Assembly (NCBI GenBank): GCA_016218105.1
Contig: JACRET010000001.1
Coordinates: 1 to 64,000 of the forward strand
DNA length: 64,000 nt
Direction: 5' to 3'
DNA from: Deltaproteobacteria bacterium
GTDB lineage: Bacteria; Desulfobacterota; GWC2-55-46
Position 1 is the stretch's first letter, and each line of letters starts with the position of its first letter. The notes below the pieces were generated by a model. That model worked only from the letters and a program-made list of their open reading frames with translations. It was not told the DNA's origin and did no database searches. Of the stretch, positions 22,377 through 28,647 are shown piece by piece. The translations under genes were made by a program, and so were the position numbers.

Positions 22377-22402
22377 GCAAAAAAAAACGGCCTTTTGGGG
22401 CC
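22377..22402 (-). terminator. Rho-independent terminator after rnfB
   Basis: Minus strand GCGGCCCCAAAAGGCCGTTTTTTTTTG. Confidence 0.75.
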
Positions 22403-22468
22403 GCTTTGCGCTGTAAAGCAAATCTGTTTTATAAAGGCGTGAACCAGGCTTTAGACCGGTGGTGTCAT

Positions 22469-23323
22469 TTACCCTGTCTTTTTTGGCTGTGAGGCGTAAA
22501 AAGCGGCCTTTGTGACCTTTTCCTCGATCCCCGAAAGTATGCACTTTGTCGGGCAGCGCTTTACGGACTCGTCGTTCTGAGGGGCAAGCCCATAATTCAC
22601 CACTGCAAGGTTGTCCTTTAACGCTATGCCGCCGGGCACCGAGCAGTCCTTTACGCAGAGCCCGCAGGCTATGCAGGAGACCTTGCAGACCTTTTTGGCG
22701 TGCGCCCCCTTGTCCTTGCTCTTGCAATATACGAACAGCTTATGGTCTTCCGGGTGCATCTCGATTATATCTCTCGGGCATGCCCTCGCGCACGCTCCGC
22801 AACCTACGCACTTATCAAAAAATACCACCGGCAGCCCGTTGGCGTTCATCGCCATCGCGTCGAATTTGCAGGCATCCACGCACTCGCCGTAACCGAGGCA
22901 CCCGTACGTGCAGCTCTTGTCCCCGCCGGTAAGGTTTGCCGCGGTACAGGTCATCTCTCCCCTGTACTGTGCCCTGCGCTCCGCCTCAGCCGTGCCGCCC
23001 TTACAAAGGACGACGGCTACCTTCCTCTTGTGCTCTGACGCGTCAGCGCCTAGTAAAGCCGCGAGCGCCTTTGCGGTATCGCTGCCGCCAGCCACGCAGG
23101 CGTTCGAAGGCGCTGTGCCCGCAAGAAGGGCTTCGGCAAGCATCCTGCAGCCGGGATATCCGCAGCCGCCGCAGTTCGTGTTAGGGAGTATCCCGGCTAT
23201 CGCCTCTATGCGCGGGTCTTCCTCCACCCTCAGCTTTTTATCCGCGAAGGCAAGGAATATCGAGAGAGCGGCGCCAAGGCCTCCCATGCTTACGGCTGAT
23301 ATTATGAGCGAAGCGGCTGTCAT
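22469..23323 (-). CDS. rnfB: Rnf complex subunit RnfB
   Basis: LPNTNCGGCGYPGCRMLAEAL, 4Fe-4S CVGCGACARACP, CIACGLCVKDC. Confidence 0.95.
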   Translation of the reverse strand: MTAASLIISAVSMGGLGAALSIFLAFADKKLRVEEDPRIEAIAGILPNTNCGGCGYPGCRMLAEALLAGTAPSNACVAGGSDTAKALAALLGADASEHKRKVAVVLCKGGTAEAERRAQYRGEMTCTAANLTGGDKSCTYGCLGYGECVDACKFDAMAMNANGLPVVFFDKCVGCGACARACPRDIIEMHPEDHKLFVYCKSKDKGAHAKKVCKVSCIACGLCVKDCSVPGGIALKDNLAVVNYGLAPQNDESVKRCPTKCILSGIEEKVTKAAFYASQPKKTG

Positions 23324-23327
23324 TGAT

Positions 23328-23906
23328 CTATCCTCTTATAAGTCCGGCAAAACCCATGAAAGCCAGGGCCATCATGCCGGCTACTATGAGCGTTATGGAA
23401 ATGCCCTGGAACGGCTTGGGAATGTCCGCGAACTCAAGCTCTTCCCTTATGCCTGACATCATGAGTATGGCAAGTGTAAAGCCCACGCCAGTCGCGAAAC
23501 CGAAGATTATCGATTCGATATAGTTATATTCCCTCAAGACCATGAAGAGCGCAAGCCCGAGGACGGCGCAATTCGTGGTGATTAGCGGCAGATATATCCC
23601 AAGCGCCCTGTAGAGGGCGGGACTGGATTTGCGTATATACATCTCGACCAGCTGGACGAGCGCGGCTATGGCGATAATGAAGGCCACGTACTCGAGGAAC
23701 GGCACGTTGAACCTGACGAGCACATAAGTGTATATGGGCCACGTGACCGCGGCCGTAAGGGTCATTACAAAGGTCGTGGCAAGACCCATATTGAGCGCGT
23801 TCTCCGTCTTGTTGGATACCCCTACGAACGGGCATATGCCCAGAAAATAGGTGAGCACGAAGTTGTTGATCAGGGACGCTGATATAAAAATCATTAATAG
23901 CTTCAA
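23328..23906 (-). CDS. rnfA: Rnf complex subunit RnfA
   Basis: NNFVLTYFLGICPFVGVSNKTENALNMGLATTFVMT. Confidence 0.95.
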   Translation of the reverse strand: MKLLMIFISASLINNFVLTYFLGICPFVGVSNKTENALNMGLATTFVMTLTAAVTWPIYTYVLVRFNVPFLEYVAFIIAIAALVQLVEMYIRKSSPALYRALGIYLPLITTNCAVLGLALFMVLREYNYIESIIFGFATGVGFTLAILMMSGIREELEFADIPKPFQGISITLIVAGMMALAFMGFAGLIRG

Positions 23907-23916
23907 AGCAAAACTC

Positions 23917-24546
23917 CTAAGCGTTCTCTGTGCCTGCAGCTTTTCTGCTTGAGATATAATTCACGAGCGCGATGAGCGCGCCGAAGACGAGGAACGCGCC
24001 AGCCGGCAGGATCATCACTATCCAGGGTTCGAACCAGGTGTTGCTGAGTATCTTGAAGTTGAATATCGAGCCGAAGCCTAGCAGCTCCCTGATAAAGCCC
24101 ATTGTCATGAGGCTCAAGGTAAATCCTATGCCGATCCCGAGCGCGTCGGCAATCGATGGAATGACCGGGTTCTTTTGCGCGAACGCCTCGGCGCGGCCCA
24201 GGATGATGCAGTTTACGACTATACTCGGCAAATAGGGCCCAAGCGCCTTGGATATCGGCGGGAACTTGGCCGCCACAAACAAATCAGCCACGGTTACGAG
24301 GAGCGCTATGATAACGACGTACGCCGCGATCCTGACCTGCGGCGAGATATACTTTCTTACCGCCGAAATAAGGATATTCGAACCCAGGAGGACAAAGAGT
24401 GTAGCAAGACCCATCGCGACGCCGTTTATTACTGAGTTCGTAACTGCGAGGGTCGGGCATGTGCCGAGCACCAGCCTGAACGGCGGGATGTCCTGCCAAA
24501 GGCCTTTTTTAAACTCATACCAGAGTGAATAATTATTTTCCGCCAT
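23917..24546 (-). CDS. rnfE: Rnf complex subunit RnfE
   Basis: PFRLVLGTCPTLAVTNSVINGVAMGLATLFVLLGSN. Confidence 0.95.
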   Translation of the reverse strand: MAENNYSLWYEFKKGLWQDIPPFRLVLGTCPTLAVTNSVINGVAMGLATLFVLLGSNILISAVRKYISPQVRIAAYVVIIALLVTVADLFVAAKFPPISKALGPYLPSIVVNCIILGRAEAFAQKNPVIPSIADALGIGIGFTLSLMTMGFIRELLGFGSIFNFKILSNTWFEPWIVMILPAGAFLVFGALIALVNYISSRKAAGTENA

Positions 24547-25189
24547 CTTTTGACTCCTTGGGCTCCGCGCTCTCCGGGGCCTTTACAGCCGAAGCCGGTT
24601 TCGCCTCGAAAGCCGCGAGACCGTCTTTGGGGAACTCCCTTAAGACCTTCTGGACGGCATTGTTTATGTTCTTGACGACCGCGTCCGACGAGATAGTCGC
24701 GCCTGTGATGGACTGGATCTGGTTCGGCTTCTCGGGCTTCCGGTTCTTTATGTACTCTACCTTCGGGGTTATGTCGATGCCTTTGAACTGGTTCTCGAAT
24801 TCAGGCTCGCTTATCCTGTTTCCAAGGCCTGGAGTCTCGACCTGGTCAAGTATCTTTATGCCTTTGAGCTTTAGATAATCAAGCCCCAGGCCTACCATGA
24901 CCCCGATATTCCCCTGGAAACCGCCGCCGTCCGCCTTGAAAGCAAGCCCGACAGGCTTTCCTTCCCCGTCAATGCCTTCATACACGACTATCGTCTCCTG
25001 CCCAACCTTCTTCTCAAGGAGCTTGTAATCCTTCGCCTCGGGGAGGACGACGAAAATGGCCTCCTTGAGCTCCTTTTCCTTGTTGGCCTGTATCATCGGG
25101 TCGGCGACCTGGAAGACCCCGGCGAGTATTACGCCCGATATCGCGCCCACAAGCGTGAGGTTCAGAAACATTTTTGTTACATTATTCAA
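24533..25189 (-). CDS. rnfG: Rnf complex subunit RnfG (FMN-binding)
   Basis: QVETPGLGNRISEPEFENQF, SITGATISSDAVVKNINNAV flavinylation-type motif. Confidence 0.93.
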   Translation of the reverse strand: MNNVTKMFLNLTLVGAISGVILAGVFQVADPMIQANKEKELKEAIFVVLPEAKDYKLLEKKVGQETIVVYEGIDGEGKPVGLAFKADGGGFQGNIGVMVGLGLDYLKLKGIKILDQVETPGLGNRISEPEFENQFKGIDITPKVEYIKNRKPEKPNQIQSITGATISSDAVVKNINNAVQKVLREFPKDGLAAFEAKPASAVKAPESAEPKESKDGGK

Positions 25190-25219: not shown

Positions 25220-26248
25220 TTACTGTCCTGCCTTAAGCCCGTTCGCGCCGAACACCCTCGGCCGCGTGTGTTTATTGAGGAGCGGCACGAACGCGTTCAT
25301 AAAGAGTATGGAGTACATGACGCCTTCCGGCAGACCGCCGAAGAGCCTGATTACCACAGCCATTATCCCGCCCAGTATCGCGAATATCCACTGTCCGGTA
25401 TCCGTAGTAGGGGATGTTACCATGTCAGTGACCATGAACCACGCCCCTAGCATCGCGCCTCCGGCGCAGAGATGGAAAAGCGGGCTGGGATATTTCACGG
25501 GGTCGATAAACCAGAATATCGCGGAGAAGGCCGCCATTGATCCAAGATAGCCGAGCGGCAGCTTCCAGTTGACGTAGCCTTTATAACGGAGATAAAGCCC
25601 TCCGATGATTATGGCGATAACCGAGGTCTCGCCAAGCGACCCGGCGACGTTACCCGTGAAGAGGTCCATTATAGGCGTCGCCTTGCCCTCGAACTTCATC
25701 AAGGCCAGCGGTGTGGCCGCCGATACCGCGTCTACCGCCTTTTGTATCGTCCTCGGCTCTACCCATGTGGTCGTAAGAACCGGGTAGGTAGCCATCAAAA
25801 ACGCCCTTCCAAGGAGAGCGGGGTTGAATATATTGAATCCCAGTCCGCCGAAGAGCTGTTTGCCTATGCCTATCGCGAAGACCGAGCCGAGTATCGTTCC
25901 GAATACCGGGAACCCCGGAGGAAGGGTCATCGCAAGGAGTATGCCTGTTATAATGGCGCTGCCGTCATAGATTTTTATAGGCCTGCCGCGGTATTTCTGG
26001 AATGCGTATTCGGTAATGAGGCATGTGCCGATCGCTATCACGTAAAGGAGAAGCGCCCTGAAACCGAAAAAATATACAGATGCGGCCATCGCCGGAAAGA
26101 GCGCCATCACGACCGTGTGCATGATCTTCGGTACGGACTCGTTCTTCAGGAAATGCGGTGACGATGTCACGAAGAGCTTCCCGCTCCCGCTCCCGCCTTC
26201 GGGCATAGAGGCCTTTATCTCTTTTTTGTCGAGCGTCTTATCTTCCAT
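25220..26248 (-). CDS. rnfD: Rnf complex subunit RnfD
   Basis: FVTSSPHFLKNESVPKIMHTVVMALFPA; VSAATPLALMKFEG; FMVTDMVTSPTTDTGQWIFAILGG. Confidence 0.95.
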   Translation of the reverse strand: MEDKTLDKKEIKASMPEGGSGSGKLFVTSSPHFLKNESVPKIMHTVVMALFPAMAASVYFFGFRALLLYVIAIGTCLITEYAFQKYRGRPIKIYDGSAIITGILLAMTLPPGFPVFGTILGSVFAIGIGKQLFGGLGFNIFNPALLGRAFLMATYPVLTTTWVEPRTIQKAVDAVSAATPLALMKFEGKATPIMDLFTGNVAGSLGETSVIAIIIGGLYLRYKGYVNWKLPLGYLGSMAAFSAIFWFIDPVKYPSPLFHLCAGGAMLGAWFMVTDMVTSPTTDTGQWIFAILGGIMAVVIRLFGGLPEGVMYSILFMNAFVPLLNKHTRPRVFGANGLKAGQ

Positions 26249-26309: not shown

Positions 26310-27638
26310 TCATTTGGACGAGGCACGCTGCGCCTCTTTACGGACAAAGTACTTGCCCACCCTTATCCACTGAAGGAGCGGCCTCTTGGCCGGGCATACG
26401 TATGAACAGCAGCCGCATTCTATGCAGGCTCCAGCGTCCCAGCCCTTGAAATTATCGAGCATCTTGGCCTTGCCGTAGTCTCCCAGCCTGTAGGGCATAA
26501 GGCCCATGGGGCAGGCGTGGACGCAGCTGGCGCATTTGATGCAAGGGTCGTATCCTTCGGGTTTGATGGCGCCGGCGTCTATTACCGTGATGCCTGATGT
26601 GCCCTTAATGACAGGCGCTGTCAGGGATGACTGGGCTATACCCATCATGGGGCCGCCGTTCAAAACTTCTTTTTCGCCCTCGCCTGTCAGACCGCCGCAC
26701 TGGTTTATTACTTCCTCAAAGCTTGTGCCTATGCGCACCCTCAGATTGCGCGGGTCTCTCACACCGTTGCCGCTTATGGTGACGATCCTCTCTATAAGAG
26801 GCTTTTTATAGACAAGTGCCTCGTAAATAGCGGCGGCCGTGCCGACGTTATTGACCACAACACCTACATCCAGGGGTAATTTTCCAGGGGGGACTTTTCT
26901 GTTAAGGGCGGCCTTGATGAGCATCTTCTCGGCGCCCTGCGGATACTTTGCTTCCAGGATTATTATCTGAACGTCCGATAAGCCGATCGATTTTTTCAAG
27001 GCCTCGATCGCGTCAGGCTTATTCTCTTCTATGCCGATAAAGCCTTTAGTAGCGCCCGTAGCCCTCATAAGCGCCCTCAGGCCCCAGACTACCTTTTCAG
27101 ACTCTTCTACCATTATCCTGTGGTCGGCCGTAAGGTAAGGCTCGCACTCGCATCCGTTCAAGATAATGGCGTCAATCGCCTTGCCTTTGGGTGGGGCGAG
27201 CTTTACGGAGGTCGGGAATGCCGCTCCGCCCATGCCGACGATGCCTGCGTCGCGCACCAGTTCGCGGATGGATTCGGGCGACTGTGAATTTAAATCCACA
27301 GTCCCCTCCGCCTTCCACTCACGGGTGGTCCCATCGCCCTCTATGACGACCGCCAATACCCTGGCGCCACCGGGGTGCTGGGCAAGCTCGATATCCTTTA
27401 CCTTGCCGTTTATGGATGAATGCACCGGTGCCGAGACAAAGGCTTTTATATCGCCTATCTTCTGGCCTTCCTGTACGATGTCGCCTTTTTTAACGAGTGG
27501 TTCGCAGGGCGCGCCTGCGTGCTGCTGGAGCGGTATGGTTACGACTTTGGGAAGTGCCGCGGTTACGACACCTTTGCCGGAGGTCAGTTCTTTATAGTAA
27601 GAGGGGTGTATGCCCCTCTCGAAAGTCTTATGTCCCAT
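26310..27638 (-). CDS. rnfC: Rnf complex subunit RnfC
   Basis: TIPLQQHAGAPCEPLVKKGDIVQEGQKIGD, GMGGAAFPTSVKL, two 4Fe-4S motifs. Confidence 0.95.
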   Translation of the reverse strand: MGHKTFERGIHPSYYKELTSGKGVVTAALPKVVTIPLQQHAGAPCEPLVKKGDIVQEGQKIGDIKAFVSAPVHSSINGKVKDIELAQHPGGARVLAVVIEGDGTTREWKAEGTVDLNSQSPESIRELVRDAGIVGMGGAAFPTSVKLAPPKGKAIDAIILNGCECEPYLTADHRIMVEESEKVVWGLRALMRATGATKGFIGIEENKPDAIEALKKSIGLSDVQIIILEAKYPQGAEKMLIKAALNRKVPPGKLPLDVGVVVNNVGTAAAIYEALVYKKPLIERIVTISGNGVRDPRNLRVRIGTSFEEVINQCGGLTGEGEKEVLNGGPMMGIAQSSLTAPVIKGTSGITVIDAGAIKPEGYDPCIKCASCVHACPMGLMPYRLGDYGKAKMLDNFKGWDAGACIECGCCSYVCPAKRPLLQWIRVGKYFVRKEAQRASSK

Positions 27639-27707: not shown

Positions 27708-27773
27708 AAAAAAAAAAGACCGTCACGGCAATACACTTACAGTTTTTAGCTGCAGGTATTCGCCCAGACGGTC
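27708..27773 (-). terminator. Riboswitch-controlled rho-independent terminator upstream of rnfC
   Basis: Minus strand GACCGTC...GGC-GAATAC...CTGCAG-CTAAAAA-CTG...GTATT-GCC..GACGGTC then T10; the 5' arm overlaps the riboswitch pseudoknot strand CCGTC. Confidence 0.85.
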
Positions 27774-27839
27774 GGCAGTTACTCTATAATCTCTCGATCC
27801 CCGGTGGTAGCCACCTTGATTCCGTCAGTCACGAAAGAT
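27762..27839 (-). ncRNA. ZTP (pfl) riboswitch aptamer
   Basis: Minus strand AUCUUUCGUGACUGACGGAAUCAAGGUGGCUACCACCGGGGAUCGAGAGAU...GCCGACCGUCUGGGC: P1 AUCUUUCG/CGAGAGAU, P2 GGUGG-CUA-CCACC, pseudoknot GACGG/CCGUC, conserved CCGnCUGGGC. Confidence 0.9.
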
Positions 27840-27859
27840 ATTTGTTACCTATAGAGACA

Positions 27860-27888
27860 CTATAATTCATAGAGCGCCTGCTTGTCAA
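27860..27888 (-). promoter_or_regulatory. Sigma-70 promoter of the ZTP riboswitch-rnf operon
   Basis: TTGACA (27883-27888), 17 bp, TTATAG (27860-27865); predicted start a few nt before the aptamer. Confidence 0.75.
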
Positions 27889-27925: not shown

Positions 27926-28558
27926 CTATAACCTGCCATGTAAAAAATCCTTTATGAGGAAAAAAAGCGTTATGAGTATCCCGGCAAGCACCAGGAGTAT
28001 GCTTAAACCCACTATCGGTATGACCGATTCAGCGGCGACCTCGGCCCCAAGGGCGGTAGTCCTGTAGCCCATTATTATCCACGCGAACGGGTAGAAGAAG
28101 CCGCCAGTGCCGAGGCATGTTGAGGCGACAGTCTTTACCTTGTGATTGGCTGAAAGGAATGAGAGCAGTATGGAGACGCTTATCGAGAGTATGCCAAGCC
28201 CCATCGCGTGAATATGCCCTCTCGTAAGCCTCTCGTGCGCCTCTTCCATGTCGCCGTCTGAATGGGAGGAATGGTCTTCTGTTTTACCGTGTTCATGCGG
28301 CGCGCCAGCGGTTTGAGCAGCATGGCCGCTGGCCCCTTCGGCTGCCGCCGTGGTATCGGCGGGGTTATGATGCTCGTGGCCCTGCCCCGGCCCGCTTAAA
28401 ACGAACTTTTCCTCAATCGCGGTTTTAGCGCTTAGCGAGAGCGTCCTGTGAATGGATTCATGGTTTACCGTCATGTAGGCGGCCCAGAATATCCCGAACA
28501 ACAGGCTGAATAAACCTAAAAGTAACCCGATAAAGACTGGGCGAAACTGATTTTTCAT
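27926..28558 (-). CDS. Membrane protein with histidine-rich periplasmic loop
   Basis: MKNQFRPVFIGLLLGLFSLLFGIFW...; HEHHNPADTT..HEHGKTEDHSSHSDGD; about 4 TM. Start at 28558 with AAAGGAG. Confidence 0.65.
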   Translation of the reverse strand: MKNQFRPVFIGLLLGLFSLLFGIFWAAYMTVNHESIHRTLSLSAKTAIEEKFVLSGPGQGHEHHNPADTTAAAEGASGHAAQTAGAPHEHGKTEDHSSHSDGDMEEAHERLTRGHIHAMGLGILSISVSILLSFLSANHKVKTVASTCLGTGGFFYPFAWIIMGYRTTALGAEVAAESVIPIVGLSILLVLAGILITLFFLIKDFLHGRL

Positions 28559-28647
28559 ATCATCTCCTTTGATCAGGCCGCTAAACGCAATAAATACAAG
28601 TAACATAATACGGCAATACAACGCGGCATTAAAGACATTTTATCGCG

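Follow-up and report, generated by a model that had tools for sequence, protein, structure and literature searches.

The leader of the rnfCDGEAB operon in this deltaproteobacterium very probably contains a transcriptional ON riboswitch that senses ZMP/ZTP, where the ligand and the direction of switching are those expected from the class of the RNA. It is a canonical ZTP riboswitch, and rnf is an apparently new, conserved and clade-restricted target for it.

A complete ZTP aptamer lies between a promoter and rnfC

The whole stretch of DNA analysed (64 kb, hereafter the window) was searched against Rfam, and RF01750, the ZMP/ZTP aptamer or pfl motif, was the sole family above its gathering score (39 bits for this model). 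The match on the minus strand covered model positions 1–86 of 86 with 56.4 bits and an E-value of 1.7e-6 for the whole window, and bore out the original prediction of a ZTP riboswitch upstream of the rnf operon. A chance similarity to the ZTP aptamer was ruled out by this full-length covariance match and by the position kept in 29 genomes.

The aptamer is placed between a TTGACA promoter and rnfCDGEAB (Table 1). The promoter was present at 27888–27860 (minus strand) as had been described, and a promoter scanner registered the site as TTGACA-18-TATAGT with 11 of 12 matches. The predicted identity of rnfC and its operon was also upheld, as all six Rnf subunits (C, D, G, E, A and B) were matched by their NCBIfam models in one operon, with genes spaced by at most about 62 bases or overlapping. 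Judging from family membership, the Rnf complex should be a ferredoxin:NAD oxidoreductase with ion transport. Because of the tight gene spacing and a terminator-like hairpin closing the unit after rnfB, the controlled unit is most likely rnfCDGEAB alone; beyond this hairpin lie cytochrome c maturation genes (ResB, a cytochrome c assembly protein, thioredoxin-like and DsbD-like).

Table 1. Features of the rnf leader and operon in the window
Feature	Position	Strand	Basis
Sigma-70-type promoter, TTGACA (27888–27883)-N17-TTATAG (27865–27860)	27859–27888	−	Read from sequence; promoter scan
ZMP/ZTP aptamer (RF01750, pfl motif)	27755–27842	−	Rfam covariance-model match, full length
Pseudoknot 5′ strand GACGG (J1/2)	27822–27826	−	Pairs with CCGUC in 28 of 28 aligned rnf leaders
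Pseudoknot 3′ strand CCGUC	27767–27771	−	Also base of terminator 5′ arm
Intrinsic terminator, hairpin (27773–27718) and run of 10 U (27717–27708)	27708–27773	−	Direct folding
rnfC	26310–27638	−	NCBIfam TIGR01945, 516.5 bits
rnfD	25220–26248	−	NCBIfam TIGR01946
rnfG	24533–25189	−	NCBIfam TIGR01947
rnfE	23917–24546	−	NCBIfam TIGR01948
rnfA	23328–23906	−	NCBIfam TIGR01943
rnfB	22469–23323	−	NCBIfam TIGR01944
Terminator-like hairpin and T run after rnfB	22384–22407	−	Hairpin of 9 pairs; top-ranked site on the minus strand of this region

P1, P2, P3 and the pseudoknot between J1/2 and the P3 loop were all present in the window copy, with their pairs kept across 28 rnf leaders. P1, P2 and the pseudoknot had been claimed to pair, and all three do so, but the innermost (top) P1 pair of the window copy is U-U, as it also is in G024, whereas most siblings have C-G or U-G. 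The window rnf aptamer is not the top-scoring RF01750 copy of its own genome. Its conserved core positions agree with the consensus, including the U of the P3 loop. The loop nucleotide after the pseudoknot strand, a U (T77 of alignment A1), was invariant in the 28 leaders, and by our own mapping we take it to be the U that contacts ZMP in the crystal structure of a ZTP riboswitch (PMC7337938).

Directly upstream of the riboswitch is a membrane protein gene (27929–28564, minus strand) with no Pfam or NCBIfam match; by sequence reading, a similar gene is also found upstream of rnfC in the aptamer-less genomes G007 and G012. A CRISPR-DR4 match at 28463–28490 of the plus strand (22 bits against a threshold of 35) falls within a coding region of the other strand and is most likely due to chance.

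The pseudoknot shares a strand with an intrinsic terminator

A generic terminator scan reported no site in the rnf leader because the hairpin has internal loops, and it was direct folding that revealed it. The segment 27774–27705 folded with −28.8 kcal/mol (z −5.76), and none of 200 shuffled sequences was equally stable. The 5′ arm of the terminator contains CCGUC, the 3′ strand of the aptamer pseudoknot, and since this strand is common to both structures, the pseudoknot and the terminator are mutually exclusive. The terminator with this shared strand, absent from the original prediction, is the strongest mechanistic evidence. Its 5′ arm begins at the pseudoknot strand or inside it in nearly all leaders: 28 of 29 at rnf, 31 of 32 at NADP-isocitrate dehydrogenase (idh) and all 19 at aminotransferase–serA; G014 is without a clean T run. 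Covariation within the upper terminator stem was dropped as evidence, as the alignment is loose there and the +1 slide control was unconvincing, scoring nearly as high.

Competition between pseudoknot and terminator has been proven for the ON switches of Thermosinus carboxydivorans (PMC7337938) and Clostridium beijerinckii (PMC10085676). The rnf leader resembles the ZMP/ZTP riboswitches of C. beijerinckii pfl and T. carboxydivorans (PMC10085676, PMC7337938) in its full-length aptamer, this competition and its predicted ON direction, but differs from them in its target, which is rnf and not a purine, folate or one-carbon gene. In the mechanism that we propose, CCGUC at the end of the aptamer would, without ligand, pair with a downstream GACGG to form the intrinsic terminator, and rnf would be off. 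When 10-formyl-THF runs short, ZMP/ZTP would accumulate and stabilise the GACGG/CCGUC pseudoknot, so that the terminator would be blocked and rnf transcribed.

The rnf leader is conserved within a restricted clade

Of the 59 genomes searched, 53 had rnfC, and 29 of the 53 carry a ZTP leader at this gene. By family, the leader was present in 25 of 27 members of f1 (the window's family), three of four of f7 and one of four of f11, and nowhere else among the 59. The layout of promoter, aptamer, terminator and rnfC is kept in these 29 genomes (the window's bacterium and 28 relatives), and every one has a perfect TTGACA −35 box upstream of the aptamer. Pairing and covariation were analysed in an alignment of 28 rnf leaders (A1). 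P1 showed changes on both sides at seven of its 12 pairs, and sliding the partners lowered the share of paired cells from 88% to 50% or less; the aptamer also beat shuffled controls. GACGG/CCGUC pairing was found in 28 of 28 leaders, with a single pair broken in one; the pseudoknot is nearly invariant and hence carries no covariation.

The common form of this pseudoknot in ZTP riboswitches is GGCGG/CCGCC, and GACGG/CCGUC had been read as a compensatory change. Measured against the Rfam consensus the change does exist, but it is not special: at least 89 of 94 ZTP aptamers from this and related genomes have it, whatever gene follows. It is a lineage-wide trait with nothing specific to the window copy, and we rejected it as special evidence for that copy.

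In two f1 members (G007 and G012), and in most other families of the class, rnfC is present but the aptamer is missing; ZTP control of rnf is therefore dispensable. Among 247 genomes sampled evenly across the phylum, 68 had rnfC above the cut-off and 15 had any ZTP aptamer, and the two co-occurred only in members of f1. In a collection of named genomes, Rfam placed no ZTP aptamer at the locus for 75 of 80 RnfC relatives; the five carriers (L129–L132 and L134) are all in this clade, being ‘Deltaproteobacteria’ MAGs mostly from groundwater. Thus the rnf leader is clade-restricted. On an RnfC tree computed without the badly framed row G031, at least four changes of state were needed, and a single clade uniting all leader carriers was rejected. 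Because the f11 carrier G056 clusters with the non-carriers of its own family, repeated gain, or a single gain with several losses, is the likely history. This patchy distribution, together with the U-U mismatch of the window copy, could point to an element that was copied recently or is decaying and that hardly regulates rnf, but we consider this highly improbable given the P1 covariation, the intact overlap of terminator and pseudoknot and the −35 box conserved in 29 diverged genomes.

Rnf appears to belong to a wider ZTP regulon

At least one RF01750 match above the cut-off was found in 42 of the 59 genomes searched, and five in the window's genome. Clustering of the downstream genes at 94 ZTP loci from this and related genomes gave idh as the first gene after the aptamer at 32 loci, rnfC at 29 and a class-V aminotransferase followed by serA at 19. 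Rarer first genes were a CPA2 antiporter (five), a citryl-CoA-synthetase-like gene (three) and icd, kup, pntA and ppa (one each; icd and ppa named by sequence reading alone); two loci were not resolved. The idh leader is the most widespread (families f1, f3, f4, f7, f8 and f11), and the genes after the ZTP-led idh have the citryl-CoA synthetase subunits of 6hxq as their best solved relatives. The aminotransferase–serA leaders precede the gene order aminotransferase, serA, hisZ, purA. Genes for 2-oxoacid:ferredoxin oxidoreductase lie downstream in ZTP loci of G051 and G057, and four f11 loci (L115–L118) have ZTP leaders before kup, icd, citryl-CoA-synthetase-like and 2-oxoacid:ferredoxin oxidoreductase genes, and a transhydrogenase alpha subunit.

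Some of these loci call for separate remarks. Three (L123, L056 and L057) have long hairpin insertions in or beside the P2 region of the aptamer. One of the five matches in the window's assembly (L125), on a 3.6 kb contig (C68), is identical to the aptamer L039 of the sibling species G002; a distinct aminotransferase–serA leader is on contig C84, and the stated contamination of the assembly is 5.78%. Contig C68 probably comes from another organism, which would reduce the genuine ZTP copies of the window's genome to four.

The original prediction had tied one-carbon status to redox and ion-gradient metabolism through rnf. The ZTP switch at rnf agrees with this, but because these genomes have the same aptamers before genes for isocitrate dehydrogenase, citrate cleavage and serine synthesis too, the link is better framed as a regulon. 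Rnf would be one part of it, and the regulon as a whole looks like a combination of TCA or CO2-fixing carbon flow with the supply of reduced ferredoxin and of serine/C1 units.

Variants are known to have arisen within riboswitch classes, and idh, citryl-CoA synthetase, Rnf, the cation antiporter and Kup are outside the classical purine/folate set. These targets might reflect another signal, with the ZTP-class fold kept and a related molecule sensed. We regard such a change of ligand as improbable, however, as the conserved core agrees with the consensus down to the P3-loop U, and the same aptamer type also stands before serA–hisZ–purA, a classical one-carbon/purine context.

All five genomes of the window's genus, and only these, have a ZTP leader at a CPA2-type cation:proton antiporter (L124, L037, L041, L046 and L049), and these leaders keep the pseudoknot–terminator overlap. 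Such leaders, and the one carried by the Kup transporter of G051, would suit a reading in which ZMP/ZTP is sensed but purine shortage serves to report growth or energy state in general, with Rnf and the ion transporters managing the ion gradient or NADH. This is possible but doubtful in our view, as most of the 94 loci precede carbon, redox or serine genes (idh, rnfC and aminotransferase–serA).

Comparison with known ZTP riboswitches

The pfl/ZTP RNAs have been found at purH, fhs, pfl, glyA, folD and genes related to these (PMC2864571); a gene of the serine pathway and, as an unusual case, moeA are further sites (PMC9481103). Nearly all ZTP riboswitches described so far belong to purine, folate and one-carbon genes. 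The view that rnf falls outside the standard targets is in line with the literature searched, in which no ZTP riboswitch was linked to rnf or isocitrate dehydrogenase, the supplement of the 2015 discovery paper, which lay outside that search, being a place where some could be listed; ‘ferredoxin’ in the ZTP riboswitch literature searched refers to another riboswitch class. In Bacillus, tandem ZTP/glycine leaders precede the gene starting the conversion of 3-phosphoglycerate into serine (PMC9481103). The aminotransferase–serA leaders of this clade have the same type of target, but with a single ZTP aptamer, followed by aminotransferase, serA, hisZ and purA. The ZTP riboswitches at moeA (PMC9481103) set a precedent for a target outside purine/folate metabolism, although they are tandem and predicted to be OFF switches, whereas the rnf leader is single and predicted to be ON.

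Metabolic setting and possible meaning of the switch

We found purH in 28 of the 30 genomes checked, and its enzyme consumes ZMP in a 10-formyl-THF-dependent reaction; ZMP is therefore made and consumed by such an enzyme in these bacteria. A full formate–THF ligase was found only in part of f1, and acetyl-CoA synthase was found in none of 21 genomes searched. The window's genome encodes a 2-oxoacid:ferredoxin oxidoreductase as well (KorA). Citrate synthase is also present, so the oxidative TCA direction is possible too, which bears on the purpose of the regulon. A reductive carbon flow would agree with this gene set. Such a flow requires reduced ferredoxin, and Rnf is able to produce it from NADH by drawing on the ion gradient; the forward reaction of Rnf, from ferredoxin to NADH, is just as conceivable.

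In the regulon that we propose, Rnf would act together with NADP-isocitrate dehydrogenase, citryl-CoA-synthetase/ATP-citrate-lyase-like proteins and SerA. Carbon would be driven towards 2-oxoglutarate and acetyl-CoA and from there to serine, which donates one-carbon units, and Rnf would supply reduced ferredoxin by spending the ion gradient. That one-carbon supply through this carbon and ferredoxin regulon is the purpose of the switch is a looser reading, to which we give roughly an even chance. Similarly balanced is our judgement that, in this uncultivated clade, ZMP/ZTP serves as the alarmone in command of a regulon for central carbon and energy metabolism, comprising isocitrate dehydrogenase, citrate cleavage, Rnf and serine synthesis, with 2-oxoglutarate:ferredoxin oxidoreductase and transhydrogenase in some members. 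If so, a lack of one-carbon units would act directly to turn on reductive carbon assimilation together with the supply of ferredoxin that it requires.

Taken together, the results suggest that a stress signal of purine/folate state would control central carbon and energy metabolism besides purine synthesis. The leaders of rnf, isocitrate dehydrogenase, citrate-cleaving and serA genes would extend the reach of the alarmone to redox and ion-gradient metabolism, and make this clade a testable case of an RNA regulon recruited to new targets.
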